Source: Streptomyces venezuelae (GTDB lineage: Bacteria; Actinomycetota; Actinomycetes; Streptomycetales; Streptomycetaceae). Taken from it: a stretch of DNA of 64,000 bases. Positions 19,839 through 25,159 of the stretch are shown in pieces. Position 1 is the stretch's first letter, and each line of letters begins with the position of its first letter. A program made the position numbers and the translations under genes. The DNA is taken from positions 7,068,001-7,132,000 of the forward strand of contig NZ_CP029192.1 of the NCBI RefSeq assembly GCF_008642315.1, written 5' to 3'. Under the pieces are notes generated by a model. The model was not told the DNA's origin, made no database searches, and saw only the letters and a list, made by a program, of their open reading frames with translations.

Positions 19839-20153
19839 GTGGGGGACCTGGGCAAGGACTCGGAGTCGATAGCGAAGGCGGCGCCGCTGCTGCGCAAGGC
19901 GCCGCATCACATCGCAAAGCCGCTGCGTGATTTCAAGGCGGCCTCGCACGACCTGTCGGCGCTGGGCGCGCTCGGCGCGCTCATGAGCGCGACCGACGAC
20001 GTGCGCGAGGGCATGGAGACACTCGCCGAGGTGGCGGAGGACCTCGTCGACGAGTGGCACGGCGAGGCGAAGCTGATGACCGACCTCTCCGAGGCGTTCG
20101 ACGTCCTCGACGTGCTGCTCGAAGCCGCCGCCCGCGGCAAGAAGCAGGGCTGA
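19839..20153 (+). CDS. WXG100-like small helical protein, partner of RHS protein
   Basis: 104 aa, GTG at 19839 with GGGGGA about nine bases upstream. The sequence is almost entirely amphipathic helix, with a W-H-G triplet at 73-75 (DEWHGEAKL) between two helices. This matches the size and layout of WXG100/ESX secreted proteins. It ends four bases before the RHS gene, which itself has a WXG motif, so the pair may form a heterodimer for type VII-like export. The family assignment rests on length, helix pattern and the WXG triplet, not on a named match. No EccC or other secretion gene is in the window. Confidence 0.65.
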   Translation: MGDLGKDSESIAKAAPLLRKAPHHIAKPLRDFKAASHDLSALGALGALMSATDDVREGMETLAEVAEDLVDEWHGEAKLMTDLSEAFDVLDVLLEAAARGKKQG

Positions 20154-20157
20154 GCCC

Positions 20158-23100
20158 GTGGTCGACCTCAACCCTCTGCACTACATCAACAAGTTCAACC
20201 ACATGGCCGGCGACAACATGGCCAGCATGATGGAGTTCCTCGGGATCTCCGACCCGGCCGTGGACCCTGACGGGGTCCGGGAGATCGCCAAGAAGTGGCG
20301 CTCCCTGGCCAAGGCCGTGGACGCCTCCGTCAAGGACGCGGAAGCCGCGCTGCGGGACGTGACCTGGGAAGGCAAAACCGCCACCGCCTTCAACAAGCGG
20401 GCCAGGAAAACCCGTTCGCAAGCGACGAGGATGGCGGACTCGCTGCGCGACGGCGCCGATGCCCTGGACAAGTACGCCGACGAAGCACACGAACTGCTCA
20501 CCGAACTCAACGTCATCATCGTCGAGATCATCGAAGTGGAGATGGCGGGCCTGGCGCTCTCCGTCCTCACCGGAGGCGCCTCCGCGGTCGTCGGGAGCCT
20601 CGCGGCGGGCGCGCGCTTCGCGAAGGTCATGGCCCTCATCGGCCGTATCGAACACGCCGGCACCGCGATGGCCCGCACCATCCGCGCGGTCCTGGAGGTC
20701 ATCCGCGGCCTGCGCCGGGCCCTGAAGGCCCTCAAGGAGATCAAGACGATCGCGCGGATCGGCAAGATGGCGGGCGAGGGCGCGAAGTTCGCCGCGCTGG
20801 ACACGCTGCTGCAGGATCCGTCCACCTTCAAGGACCCCGGGAAACTGGCGGAGACCCTCGCGCTGGGCGCGGCACTCGGTGTCGGTCTGGGCAGCCTCGG
20901 CACGCTGCTCGGCAAGGGCCTCGGCAAACTCAAGCCCAAGGACCTGTCGAAACTGCGCAGTGCCATGAAGCTCAACTGCGCCTCCTTCGAACGGCTTTCC
21001 CTCCGCCCCGGCTTCGACAAGCTGCCCGCCTCGGTGCGCAACGCGCTCAAGAAGTTCGTCCGCGACCCGATCGACGTGGCGACCGGCGACATGGCGCTGA
21101 CCCGCACCGACGTCCGCCTTCCCGGTGTCCTCCCCCTCCTCCTGGAGCGCACCCACGTCTCCTCCTACCGCTACGGCGGCTGGTTCGGCCCGTCCTGGGC
21201 CTCCACCCTGGACCAGCGGATCCAGGCGGATGAGGACGGTTTCGTCTATGCCGCCGCCGACGGCGCCCGACTCTGTTTCCCCGTGCCCGACGCGGACACC
21301 GGCGAGGCGGTGCGCCCCGAGACGCCGGGCTCACGCCTGACCCTGTCCTGGGCGGACGGATTCGACGGCGCGATATGCGTCACCGATCCCGACAGCGGCC
21401 TCGTCCAGGTCTTCCACAGCCCGGTCCCCGCCGCCGCGGGCGAAGCGGTCGACGTCCCGCTCCAGTACGTCCAGGACCGCAACGGCAACCGGATCACCAT
21501 CGAGTACGACGAGGGCGACATCCCCGTGGCGGTGTCCCACTCCGGCGGCTACCGCATCGCCCTCGACCGTGATGAGAGCGACTCCCGCATCACGTCCCTG
21601 CGCCTCCTCGATCCCGCGGAGCCGTCCGCCCCCGGCACGACCCTCCTCACCTTCGGCTACGACGAGTCCGGCCACCTCACCGAGGAGACCAACTCGTCAG
21701 GCCTCCCGATGCGTTACACCTACGACCCCGAGGGCCGCATCACCTCCTGGACCGACCGCAACGACACCACGTACTGGTACGAGTACGACACCCACGGCCG
21801 TGTGACCGCCACCGGCGGCACAGGCAACGCCCTCGCCTCCACACTCACCTACGAGACCGCGACACGCACCACACGCGTGACGGACTCACTGGGCCATGTC
21901 CGCGTCTACGAGCACAACGACGCGTTCCGGCTGATCAGGGAGACGGATCCGTTGGGTCACGTCAGCCACCGCGAGTGGGATGAGGACCACCAGATCCGCT
22001 CGGTGACCGATGGCCTCGGCCACGTCACCCGCTACCGCTACGACCGGGACGGCCGGATCATCGGCGTCACGCGCCCGGACGGCCACGAGCTCACCTCTGA
22101 GTACAACGAACTGGGACTGCCCACCACCATCACCGGGCCGGCCGGTGATGTCTGGAGTCAGGAGTACGACGAACGCGGGAACCGTGTCGCTGTGACCGAT
22201 CCGGCCGGCGCCACCACCCGATTCACCTACACATCAGCGGGCTTCCCGGACACCGTGGTCGACGCGCTTGGCAACGTCACGCGTATCCGCTGCGACGCCG
22301 CGGGCCTTCCGCTCGTCATCACCGATCCGCTCGGTGCGCGCACGCGGTACGTCCGTGACTCCTTCGGGCTCCCCGTGACCATCACGGACCCCCTGGACCA
22401 CACGACCCGCCTGGAGTGGACCGTCGAGGGGAAGCCGACACGGCGGACCGCGCCGGACGGCACCGAGGAGATGTGGGTATACGACAGCGAGGGCAACTGC
22501 CTCACGCACAGCGACGCCCACGGTTCCGTTACCCGGTACGAATACACGCACTTCGATCTGATCTCGGCCCGCACGGACCCGGACGGCGCCCGGCACGCCT
22601 TCCGCTACGACACGGAACTGCGTCTGACTGAAGTCGTCGACCCGCGGAACCTGACGTGGAAATACCATCACGACGCGGCGGGACGCCTGGTCGCCGAGAC
22701 GGACTTCGACGGCCGTACCCTCTCCTACACCCTGGACGCGGCGGGTCGCCTCATCGCCCGCACCGACGCGCTCGGCCGGACCGTCCGCTTCGAGCGTGAC
22801 GCCGCGGGCCAGACCGTCCGGAAGACGACCGACGACGGAGTCACCACTTTCACCCATACCGCGACCGGGCGACTGGTCATGGCCGAGAGCCCCGGAGCGT
22901 CGCTCCGCCTCGAGCACGACGCGCTGGGCCGCGTCCTTTCCGAGACGGTCAACGGCCTCACCACCCGCTACCAGTACGACGTGCTCGGGCAGCGCACGCA
23001 CCGCACCACCCCGTCCGGCGCCCACAGCAGGTGGAGCCATGATGCGGCGGGACACGCCGCACAGTTGGACAGCGGCGGCCACACCATCACCTTCACACGT

Positions 23101-24579
23101 GATGCGGCGGGACAGGAACTGACCCGTGCCATCGACGCCTTCACGACTCTGCACCACACCTTCGACCAACTTGGCCGCCTCACGTCGCAGTCCGTTCTCG
23201 ACGGCAGCGGGCGCAGCGTCCAGCGACGCGATTTCACGTATCGGCCGGACGGCCACCTGACCGCTCTCGACGATCAGTTGAACGGCGCCGCGCTCTTCAC
23301 ATTCGACCGGGCGGGCCGTGTCACGTCCGTCGATGCTCAGGGCTGGACCGAGCGCTATGCGTATGACACGGCGGGCAACCAGACCGACGCCTCGTGGTCC
23401 TCCACCCACCTCGGCCAAGAGGCAACCGGGGAGCGCGTCTACACCGGTACGCGCCTCACCCGCGCCGGACGTGTCCGCTACGCATACGATGCCCTGGGCC
23501 GCATCACACTGCGGCAGCGCACCAGGCTGTCCCACAAGCCGGACACCTGGCACTACACGTGGGACGCCGAGGACCGTCTCTCCTGTGTCGTCACACCGGG
23601 CGGGCAACGGTGGCGCTATCGGTACGACGCCCTGGGACGCCGCATCGCCAAGCAGCGGATGGGCCCGGACGGCACGACCCCCGTCGAGGAGACCCGTTTC
23701 ACCTGGGACGGTTCGACTCTCTGCGAACAGACCACCCACGCTTGTGACGGGCGCCTCCCGGTCACACTGACCTGGGACCACGACGGGCTGCGGCCGCTCA
23801 CTCAGTCCGAGCGCAGGGCGACGGCCGACGTACCCCAGGACAGCGTCGACGCACGGTTCTTCGCCATCGTCACCGACCTGGTCGGCGCCCCGGCGGAACT
23901 CGTCGACGAGACGGGTTCGGTCGCCTGGCGCGCCCGCTCCACGCTCTGGGGCAGCACCGCCTGGACAGACGATGCCACGGCCTACACGCCGCTGCGATTT
24001 CCCGGCCAGTACTGCGACCCGGAGACCGGCCTCCACTACAACAACCAGCGGTACTACGACCCCGAGGCGGCCCGCTATGTGAGCCCGGACCCCCTGGGGC
24101 TCGCCGCCGCCCCCGATCCATCGGCCTACGTCCACAATCCGCACCGCTGGGCCGACCCGCTGGGTCTCGCCCCGGAGTGCACGGTCGACGGCTACCGCAA
24201 GCAGACCGACCATCCGCTGAGCCGGCGCATCCACATCGGCGAGGGCGGACAAGTGACCATCACCGGCAAGGGATCGCTCTACGTGAACCTGAGCGGAGAC
24301 ATCCGGCACACCGTCGAATTCCGCGGGGAAGGCGGCCAGATCGTCCAGTTCAAGATCTCGGAGGAATTCCGCGACAAAATCAGGAAGCTGGCAGTTCCGC
24401 AGAAACAGCCGGAGGGTCTCGGCTTCACGGATGCGGAATGGAAACAGCTCAAGAAGTTCTACCCCGAGATCTCGGATCCGACCAAGGGGCCGGATCTCTA
24501 CGGCATCCCCAGCGGCATGCTCGACGAGTTCAGGAGAGAAGTTTCCAAGTATCCTGGACGGGTTGTGCAGGAGGGCTGA
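20158..24579 (+). CDS. RHS-repeat polymorphic toxin with WXG-like N-terminus and C-terminal toxin domain
   Basis: 1473 aa, GTG at 20158. The order is: helical WXG-like region (1-115, W70-E-G72); a hydrophobic/helical segment (about 130-220, AGLALSVLTGGASAVVGSLAAG) that may cross membranes; a DUF6531-type start of the shell (RDPIDVATGDMALTRTDV near 303); about 25 RHS/YD repeats (GRVTSV..., YRYDALGRR); and the RHS core (about 1285-1340, PETGLHYNNQRYYDPEAARY, SPDPLGL, a second DPLGL). The final 135 residues are a different domain (RRIHIGEGGQVTITG, LYVNLSG, IVQFKISEEFRDKIRKLAVPQ, ISDPTKGPDLYGIP). From memory this tip resembles the TreTu type of ADP-ribosyltransferase toxins acting on EF-Tu; I hold that loosely. 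No signal peptide. A putative immunity gene follows 16 bp later. Confidence 0.93.
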   Translation: MVDLNPLHYINKFNHMAGDNMASMMEFLGISDPAVDPDGVREIAKKWRSLAKAVDASVKDAEAALRDVTWEGKTATAFNKRARKTRSQATRMADSLRDGADALDKYADEAHELLTELNVIIVEIIEVEMAGLALSVLTGGASAVVGSLAAGARFAKVMALIGRIEHAGTAMARTIRAVLEVIRGLRRALKALKEIKTIARIGKMAGEGAKFAALDTLLQDPSTFKDPGKLAETLALGAALGVGLGSLGTLLGKGLGKLKPKDLSKLRSAMKLNCASFERLSLRPGFDKLPASVRNALKKFVRDPIDVATGDMALTRTDVRLPGVLPLLLERTHVSSYRYGGWFGPSWASTLDQRIQADEDGFVYAAADGARLCFPVPDADTGEAVRPETPGSRLTLSWADGFDGAICVTDPDSGLVQVFHSPVPAAAGEAVDVPLQYVQDRNGNRITIEYDEGDIPVAVSHSGGYRIALDRDESDSRITSLRLLDPAEPSAPGTTLLTFGYDESGHLTEETNSSGLPMRYTYDPEGRITSWTDRNDTTYWYEYDTHGRVTATGGTGNALASTLTYETATRTTRVTDSLGHVRVYEHNDAFRLIRETDPLGHVSHREWDEDHQIRSVTDGLGHVTRYRYDRDGRIIGVTRPDGHELTSEYNELGLPTTITGPAGDVWSQEYDERGNRVAVTDPAGATTRFTYTSAGFPDTVVDALGNVTRIRCDAAGLPLVITDPLGARTRYVRDSFGLPVTITDPLDHTTRLEWTVEGKPTRRTAPDGTEEMWVYDSEGNCLTHSDAHGSVTRYEYTHFDLISARTDPDGARHAFRYDTELRLTEVVDPRNLTWKYHHDAAGRLVAETDFDGRTLSYTLDAAGRLIARTDALGRTVRFERDAAGQTVRKTTDDGVTTFTHTATGRLVMAESPGASLRLEHDALGRVLSETVNGLTTRYQYDVLGQRTHRTTPSGAHSRWSHDAAGHAAQLDSGGHTITFTRDAAGQELTRAIDAFTTLHHTFDQLGRLTSQSVLDGSGRSVQRRDFTYRPDGHLTALDDQLNGAALFTFDRAGRVTSVDAQGWTERYAYDTAGNQTDASWSSTHLGQEATGERVYTGTRLTRAGRVRYAYDALGRITLRQRTRLSHKPDTWHYTWDAEDRLSCVVTPGGQRWRYRYDALGRRIAKQRMGPDGTTPVEETRFTWDGSTLCEQTTHACDGRLPVTLTWDHDGLRPLTQSERRATADVPQDSVDARFFAIVTDLVGAPAELVDETGSVAWRARSTLWGSTAWTDDATAYTPLRFPGQYCDPETGLHYNNQRYYDPEAARYVSPDPLGLAAAPDPSAYVHNPHRWADPLGLAPECTVDGYRKQTDHPLSRRIHIGEGGQVTITGKGSLYVNLSGDIRHTVEFRGEGGQIVQFKISEEFRDKIRKLAVPQKQPEGLGFTDAEWKQLKKFYPEISDPTKGPDLYGIPSGMLDEFRREVSKYPGRVVQEG

Positions 24580-24595
24580 CGAGGAGACCGGCGAC

Positions 24596-25159
24596 ATGAT
24601 GCATGAGATCGAGGACATCGAGCAGGAGAGGCTCCGCGTCGCCCGGCGGCCCTCCGCCCAGGACGCGCCGCCCGTGCTGTGCTGGTTCGACGTCACACCC
24701 ACGGTGCCCCTCGGCGCGTACGCGGACCGCATGCGGTCCCTGCTCGACGCGGCGCTGGGTCTTGCCCTCACCGAGGAGTTCGACGACACGCTGCCCGAGG
24801 ACTCCATCCCCGAATGGTTCGCCGCCGTGTGCGAACCCCTGTCCGCGGATGCGCCGGATTTCGCGCGGAGGGGCAGGGAATCGTACGCCGCCGCAATTCA
24901 GGGAGGGCCCTGGAGACTTCAGGGATGGCTTTACGAATTCGACCCCGAGTCGGAGACCCGGGGCTGGGCGTGGTGGGACCTGACGCGCTCGGCGGACGGC
25001 ACCGCCCAGATCTGGGTCGACACCTGGGGCGAGTCATTCTTCGCCTGTGACGAACTGCGCTGGCTCGCCTACGTCGCGGGCGCCGCCGAAGTGAGCGGCC
25101 CGCATCTTGCCAAGGTCGAGAGGTGGCACGAGGCGCTCGTCGGTGACGGCCGCTCCTGA
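24596..25159 (+). CDS. Putative immunity protein for the RHS toxin
   Basis: 187 aa, ATG at 24596 (two ATGs in tandem) with GAGGAGA eight bases upstream. It starts 16 bp after the RHS stop in the same direction. The protein is acidic, soluble, without signal or membrane helix; notable segments are PPVLCWFDVTPTVPLGAYADRMRSLLDAALG, PEWFAAVCEPL, WRLQGWLYEFDP, and GWAWWDLTRS near 130-140. I do not recognise the family. Position directly after a polymorphic toxin is the standard place of a cognate immunity gene, and its acidity fits binding to a basic toxin tip. Confidence 0.7.
   Translation: MMHEIEDIEQERLRVARRPSAQDAPPVLCWFDVTPTVPLGAYADRMRSLLDAALGLALTEEFDDTLPEDSIPEWFAAVCEPLSADAPDFARRGRESYAAAIQGGPWRLQGWLYEFDPESETRGWAWWDLTRSADGTAQIWVDTWGESFFACDELRWLAYVAGAAEVSGPHLAKVERWHEALVGDGRS

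Follow-up and report, generated by a model that had tools for sequence, protein, structure and literature searches.

Background

In the LXG systems of Firmicutes, the FxxxD motif of the small protein Lap1 is required for export, and this motif has been likened to the YxxxD/E export arm that acts together with the WXG of a partner protein (PMC9600955). WXG-type polymorphic toxins of type VII secretion systems (T7SSs) that carry RHS repeats were tabulated by Zhang et al. in 2012 (PMC3482391), and the canonical autoproteolysis motif has the form DPhGL-X17-DPhGL (PMC13285283). Here we describe a three-gene locus in a 64,000-nucleotide stretch of the Streptomyces venezuelae genome (NZ_CP029192.1, positions 7,068,001 to 7,132,000; hereafter the window), which encodes a 104-aa partner (P0001), a 1473-aa RHS protein (P0002) and a 187-aa putative immunity protein (P0003). 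We consider it likely that these genes form an antibacterial polymorphic toxin module consisting of a helical export pair, an RHS shell, an R-Y-E ADP-ribosyltransferase (ART) tip and a putative immunity protein.

Results

A conserved WXG-RHS carrier with exchangeable tips

A sequence-only reading of the window had proposed a polymorphic-toxin module here, and our analysis bears this out: a partner, a WXG-RHS carrier, an exchangeable tip and an immunity-gene family whose members immediately follow the tip at 36 of 39 loci. The three open reading frames (ORFs) lie on the + strand, at the coordinates given in that reading (Table 1), and have a coding-type composition, with third-position GC of 0.92 (P0001), 0.88 (P0002) and 0.87 (P0003), typical of the window's coding genes, towards the low end. 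They are separated by 4 bp (P0001/P0002) and 16 bp (P0002/P0003), and homologues support all three start codons. GC content in the module's 1-kb windows is ~67-70%, a little under that of much of the flanking sequence. None of the three proteins had a match in PADLOC.

Table 1. Coordinates of the module and its features in the window; residue numbers are those of P0002 unless stated
Feature	Coordinates	Strand	Description
P0001	19839..20153	+	104-aa helical putative export partner of the RHS carrier
FxxxD/E motif (FDVLD, P0001 residues 87-91)	20097..20111	+	candidate export arm; 50/50 distinct rows
P0002	20158..24579	+	1473-aa WXG-RHS polymorphic toxin
WXG100_2 domain (PF25547, residues 33-151)	20254..20610	+	37.7 bits, cut-off 27; putative T7SS targeting domain
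W-E-G (residues 70-72)	20365..20373	+	W70 and G72 in 24/24 carrier rows
Hydrophobic stretch 1 (residues 112-162)	20491..20643	+	overlaps end of WXG domain; Kyte-Doolittle 19-residue windows >1.2
Hydrophobic stretch 2 (residues 229-253)	20842..20916	+	Kyte-Doolittle 19-residue windows >1.2
RHS core shell	21064..24168	+	DUF6531 (303-374), RHS repeats, Rhs_assc_core (1263-1337)
DPLGL-X17-DPLGL (residues 1311-1337)	24088..24168	+	presumed autoproteolysis site
Toxin tip (residues 1338-1473)	24169..24579	+	predicted ADP-ribosyltransferase; R1347, Y1375, E1437 (model R8, Y36, E98)
P0003	24596..25159	+	187-aa putative cognate immunity protein

At its N-terminus P0002 combines a WXG100-like domain with a conserved WxG, as a WXG100-like T7SS substrate does; two of the 24 carrier rows in which the motif is kept (L050 and L101) are the same locus from two collections. 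PF06013 scored 25.6 bits in the protein scan (cut-off 27.3) and 31.6 in the genome search, and TIGR03930 reached 26.6, below its cut-off of 44.85. The matches to PF05593 (1.4e-93) and Rhs_assc_core (TIGR03696, 1.3e-21) identify an RHS toxin core, and solved Rhs shells are homologous to P0002 over ~1,000 residues (best E 2.9e-118). Exactly 17 residues separate the two DPLGL motifs (residues 1311-1315 and 1333-1337). The distinct tip that the sequence-only reading had seen after the second motif is there, with a length of 136 rather than 135 residues.

PAAR, FIX and DUF4157 domains are marks of toxins exported by extracellular contractile injection systems or by the type VI secretion system (T6SS). 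P0002 matched none of them, and we rejected these two routes for it. Both hydrophobic stretches lie between the WxG and the RHS shell, a position like that of the transmembrane segment in PAAR-Rhs toxins of the T6SS; they could aid entry into the target cell.

Nineteen relatives of the partner and its carrier were retrieved, and 18 of these possess both an RHS core and a tip. The window's tip is found in two of them (L101 and L102) and different tips in the other 16. When ten of these 16 were scanned, four matched toxin families of Pfam (Tox-HNH-EHHH, Scabin-like ART, Ntox28 and Endonuclea_NS_2) and six had no match. Variable tips thus sit on a conserved carrier, the pattern of RHS polymorphic toxins. 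The remaining relative (L106) has no core; its partner and carrier N-terminus are broken and are followed by a gene like that after the tip in L098, suggesting a decayed toxin locus that has retained its immunity gene.

Exchange is also visible within the window's own genome, where a paralogue of P0002 (63% identity over residues 3-1350) bears a Col-Pyo_DNase tip, and two further RHS proteins with T7SS_signal N-termini bear TreTu_C and Endonuclea_NS_2 tips. These Col-Pyo_DNase, TreTu_C and Endonuclea_NS_2 toxins, whose N-termini are of the WXG100_2 or T7SS_signal type, are at 8.81 Mb (L009), 3.87 Mb (L012) and 2.89 Mb (L010), respectively. Together they may constitute a small arsenal of differing killing modes.

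Conversely, the window's tip is borne by carriers of at least four N-terminal classes, as judged by alignment and by eye, plus HINT-type ones. Upstream genes and carrier classes were surveyed for tip-bearing ORFs of at least 3,000 bases. In all six complete cases (L030, L041, L049, L051, L053 and L055), a carrier of the T7SS_signal class is accompanied by an upstream gene of its own, 185-231 aa long. These genes have an RWEWG motif and probably represent a second, unrelated partner family.

The tip is a predicted ADP-ribosyltransferase

By its structural model (pLDDT 91.3) the tip is ART-like: the leading structural matches are ARTs, headed by the transferase RhsP2 at 13% identity. In an alignment of the window's tip with 27 of its 59 homologues, the arginine, tyrosine and glutamate of the predicted triad are invariant in 28/28 rows, and R8 fits R1490 of the R-Y-E set, judged from the start of the structural alignment. 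Neither the tip sequence nor the tip alignment found anything meaningful when searched against the solved structures. NCBIfam has no model for the tip or P0003, and no Pfam or NCBIfam model reaches its cut-off for the partner, tip or immunity families. The tip was not found in phage records, and a viral structure search with it returned weak rows only, some of them named ART.

Several observations count against this assignment or against its extension to an RNA target. The Foldseek E value of the tip against RhsP2 is 0.013, and the triad was mapped by position, without residue-by-residue pairing. E98 is replaced by D in L026 and by Q in a Chryseobacterium relative that also has H for Y36, so that the catalytic acid could instead be the invariant D101, or such copies may be inactive. 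Known ART triads include H-Y-[QED] (PMC13285283), and Q and D therefore have precedent. R-Y-E alone is also no proof of an RNA target, since EcPltA, a protein-modifying ART, has R9-Y67-E118 (PMC13324451). The net charge of the tip ranges from -8 to +5 across the 28 aligned sequences, with +1 for the window's own tip; overall charge is thus no pointer to RNA binding.

The EcPltA triad and the charge range leave room for an ART that modifies a protein rather than RNA. TreTu, for example, is an ART acting on EF-Tu. We hold a protein target to be somewhat unlikely; the leading match, RhsP2, acts on RNA, and the TreTu_C profile did not match the tip. A further alternative, an NAD(P) glycohydrolase of ART fold that, like Tne5, would empty the NAD pool and have no macromolecular target, is rather unlikely in our assessment. 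NADase-active Rhs toxins with an ART fold are known (PMC13285283), and the tip glutamate is not fully invariant in distant relatives. However, Tne5 depends on a lysine and can do almost without its glutamate (PMC13285283), whereas R, Y and E stand in all 28 aligned rows here, and the leading structural match, RhsP2, is a transferase. No NAD glycohydrolase was among the matches listed for the tip model, an absence that excludes nothing.

Wherever an organism is named, the 59 homologues from the protein collection are of Streptomyces origin, and their carriers have two different T7SS-type N-termini; some are named 'putative T7SS-secreted protein' by NCBI. A scan of genome contigs gave 39 loci, nearly all from Streptomyces or Kitasatospora, plus Nocardiopsis and Niastella. 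Two more tips came from a search of plasmids, one in a giant HINT-type toxin of Streptomyces and one in a 713-aa Chryseobacterium protein. The tip is rare: in a phylum sample of 296 genomes it occurs in one, the window's own. It is under purifying selection (dN 0.15, dS 1.7 against L031, with three other pairs in the same direction). In four loci the tip copy is incomplete or broken, with an immunity-gene match in L061 and L063 and none in L060 and L066.

A dedicated gene follows the tip

P0003 is acidic, as the sequence-only reading had stated, with a net charge of -18. A hidden Markov model of its family, whose alignment comprised P0003 and 44 of its 80 homologues, matched the ORF directly 3' of the tip in all of the 39 loci except L060, L065 and L066, a distribution that suggests a downstream immunity gene. 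It also matched in the HINT-type plasmid locus and not in Chryseobacterium. P0003 evolves under purifying selection as well (dN 0.34, dS 1.7 against L031, three other pairs in the same direction). The protein exceeded no Pfam or NCBIfam family cut-off, and a solved-structure search with the immunity alignment found nothing meaningful. Its AF2 model is of high confidence (pLDDT 93); neither RhsI2 nor an ADP-ribose hydrolase was among the matches listed for it, and this too excludes nothing.

The co-divergence of tip and immunity protein is not specific to the pair. After loci with short alignments were dropped, tip and immunity distances correlated with r 0.84 (35 loci) and 0.81 (30 loci), and over 30 loci the correlations with the RHS core are nearly as high (tip-core 0.74, immunity-core 0.80); co-divergence alone is therefore no proof of a cognate pair.

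These distributions suggest that the tip-immunity pair moves among several Streptomyces carrier types and extends to Nocardiopsis, and that the tip occurs in Bacteroidota too, there with no immunity match confirmed. On the Chryseobacterium plasmid (L027, 4001-4339) the distant tip is followed by a small gene. We rejected this gene as an immunity homologue: it resembled the immunity protein by eye (PxWF, AWxWW), but hhalign returned a probability of 1.3% (E 0.04), and other comparisons gave E 0.39 and 0.17. The Niastella gene downstream of the tip showed no relation to the immunity family.

A small partner travels with the carrier

The sequence-only reading took P0001 for a WXG100 protein and saw a double WXG pattern. 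Both triplets exist (W-H-G at residues 73-75 of P0001, W-E-G in P0002), and the half of the pattern in the RHS protein holds. The half in P0001 does not: no match to PF06013 or TIGR03930 (WXG100/ESAT-6) was found, and in the P0001 alignment (54 rows, 52 distinct, 50 with the motif columns) W73 is kept in 49/50 distinct rows and G75 in 8/50, so the WxG is not a family feature. Such a triplet arises in 7% of shuffles of the P0001 sequence. F87 is present in all 50, and position 91 is D in 47 and E in three, making the invariant FxxxD/E the more likely export feature of P0001. No Pfam or NCBIfam family exceeded its cut-off on P0001 (two Pfam rows, both far below), and neither P0001 nor P0002 matched DUF3130 (Lap1), DUF3958 (Lap2) or LXG in Pfam up to E 1.

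In 392 genomes sampled from the genus Streptomyces, a search with P0001 gave 24 rows, corresponding to 23 places in 18 genomes. Twenty-one of these places lie directly upstream of a P0002-type N-terminus, 19 near full length and two matched only in part (in G095 the match is fragmented and the carrier broken, and at G023:4699086 it covers ~40 residues); the two away from any carrier are short weak matches (L082 and L083). The reverse search with P0002 residues 1-160 recovered an identical set of 21 places at 54% identity or more. More distant are another 21 rows, with identities of 28-35%, in genomes without a nearby P0001 match; all but one of these rows fall in ORFs of ~370-700 aa. Among the 39 public tip loci, the partner adjoins P0002-type carriers only (L031, L032 and L050); in L028 (S. 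atriruber) the carrier is 5'-shortened and there is no partner match, and several loci end at contig ends, where a missing partner is uninformative. The partner therefore goes with the carrier, not the tip. At the 21 places the arrangement is that of an LXG-Lap-like pair, with a carrier-specific, FxxxD-bearing partner beside the toxin.

Export by type VII secretion is probable

Export by a type VII-like route, as first proposed from the letters of the window, is supported as probable, and both an EccC and an EssC-like ATPase are encoded in the genome. The first T7SS, at ~2.49 Mb, comprises EccC (both halves above cut-off, TIGR03924 and TIGR03925), EccD, a subtilase and two Esx proteins. In the second, the ATPase scored best with TIGR03928, below cut-off on both pieces scanned. 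This second, type VII-like cluster (3,880,400-3,903,500; L012, L024 and L025) contains a WXG100 gene and several genes of ~100 aa besides the EssC-like ATPase, and two RHS genes lie within ~25 kb of it.

Five ~100-aa proteins of the second cluster, hand-picked as Esx-like, all carry [FY]xxx[DE]xx[LIV] in their last 30 residues, and the same tail is found in P0001 and its paralogue. It occurs in 4/143 other genes (2/20 in the 60-130 aa class); two other small proteins compared lack it, as does, by eye, a hydrophobic 102-aa ORF of the cluster. One tail-bearing small gene is directly upstream of a WXG100_2 protein (26.4 bits, cut-off 27; 29.1 in the genome search), another directly upstream of a T7SS_signal protein (40.9 bits), and two more precede larger genes with no T7SS match over cut-off. 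This layout, a small gene before a putative substrate, matches that of the module in the window. Because of the shared tail we favour the second T7SS as the exporter.

Some of the evidence points the other way. The module is megabases away from both T7SS loci, the tail pattern was chosen post hoc, EsxA and EsxB of the first T7SS lack it, and [FY]xxx[DE] arises in 33% of shuffles (of one sequence). The last three points would also suit a P0001 that is a chaperone or regulator of the carrier, with export via Sec or lysis. This we judge improbable, given that no hydrophobic N-terminal signal was seen, that WXG100_2 is above cut-off, that FxxxD/E is kept in 50/50 rows, and that in the second cluster tail-bearing small proteins stand before larger genes, of which two match WXG100_2 or T7SS_signal.

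Discussion

In the mechanism we propose, P0001 and the WXG-like N-terminus of P0002 would form a helical export complex, in which the conserved WxG of the RHS protein and the conserved FxxxD/E of the partner would together address a type VII secretion ATPase. The RHS core would enclose the tip, which, as motif and homology suggest, would be released by a cut at the second DPLGL. Inside the target cell the tip would act as an NAD-dependent R-Y-E ADP-ribosyltransferase, perhaps on RNA, and the acidic P0003, closely linked to it, would bind the tip and so protect the producer and its kin. That the module instead targets non-bacterial cells or serves development through signalling, the third gene not being immunity, is very improbable, as a dedicated downstream gene in 36/39 loci and swaps with DNase tips are the pattern of inter-bacterial polymorphic toxins. 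A wider proposal is only tentative and on the unlikely side: that a Gram-positive T7SS exports whole RHS shells with a signal split between the WxG of the toxin and the FxxxD/E of a dedicated ~104-aa partner, that more than one RHS carrier class has a partner of its own, and that the tip founds an RNA-modifying R-Y-E family with a new immunity family.

The locus adds an uncatalogued family of predicted ART toxins and a paired putative immunity family. It offers a test case for how type VII secretion handles an RHS shell of ~1,000 residues, and for whether toxins of actinobacteria rely on small targeting partners in the way that LXG toxins of Firmicutes do. If the likeness to RhsP2 extends to its RNA target, the tip would serve soil bacteria as a weapon that ADP-ribosylates RNA, and their genus also encodes a mark-removing enzyme: SCO0909 of S. 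coelicolor removes ADP-ribose marks from RNA (PMC11833690).

Among the closest described systems are RhsP2-RhsI2 of Pseudomonas aeruginosa, an RNA 2'-OH ADP-ribosyltransferase delivered by a T6SS, and RhsF-RhsFi of Chromobacterium violaceum. RhsP2 and RhsF, both of the R-Y-E subgroup of ARTs, are type VI effectors, RhsF with a FIX domain, whereas the protein described here has a WXG N-terminus and a Gram-positive producer. TreTu, a Salmonella Rhs toxin, differs in its TreTu_C profile, which the window's tip does not match. The toxins of Zhang et al. (PMC3482391) share the WXG N-terminus, RHS repeats, exchangeable tips and immunity genes, although the available passages name neither a 104-aa partner nor such a tip family. 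The sequence-only view that a type VII-like route is little described for RHS proteins in Streptomyces is right in part: the 2012 table already records WXG-type T7SS toxins with RHS repeats, and among the open-licence papers listed in our searches none reports experiments on such a toxin from Streptomyces. In its export pair the module resembles LXG with Lap1/Lap2 of Firmicute T7SSb (PMC9600955), which likewise places a small helical FxxxD protein beside a toxin with a helical N-terminus, and a split between WxG and a YxxxD/E-type export arm fits the P0002/P0001 pair by analogy. Unlike LXG-Lap, with which it has no sequence family in common, it has one partner instead of two, WXG100_2 in place of LXG, and a large RHS shell.
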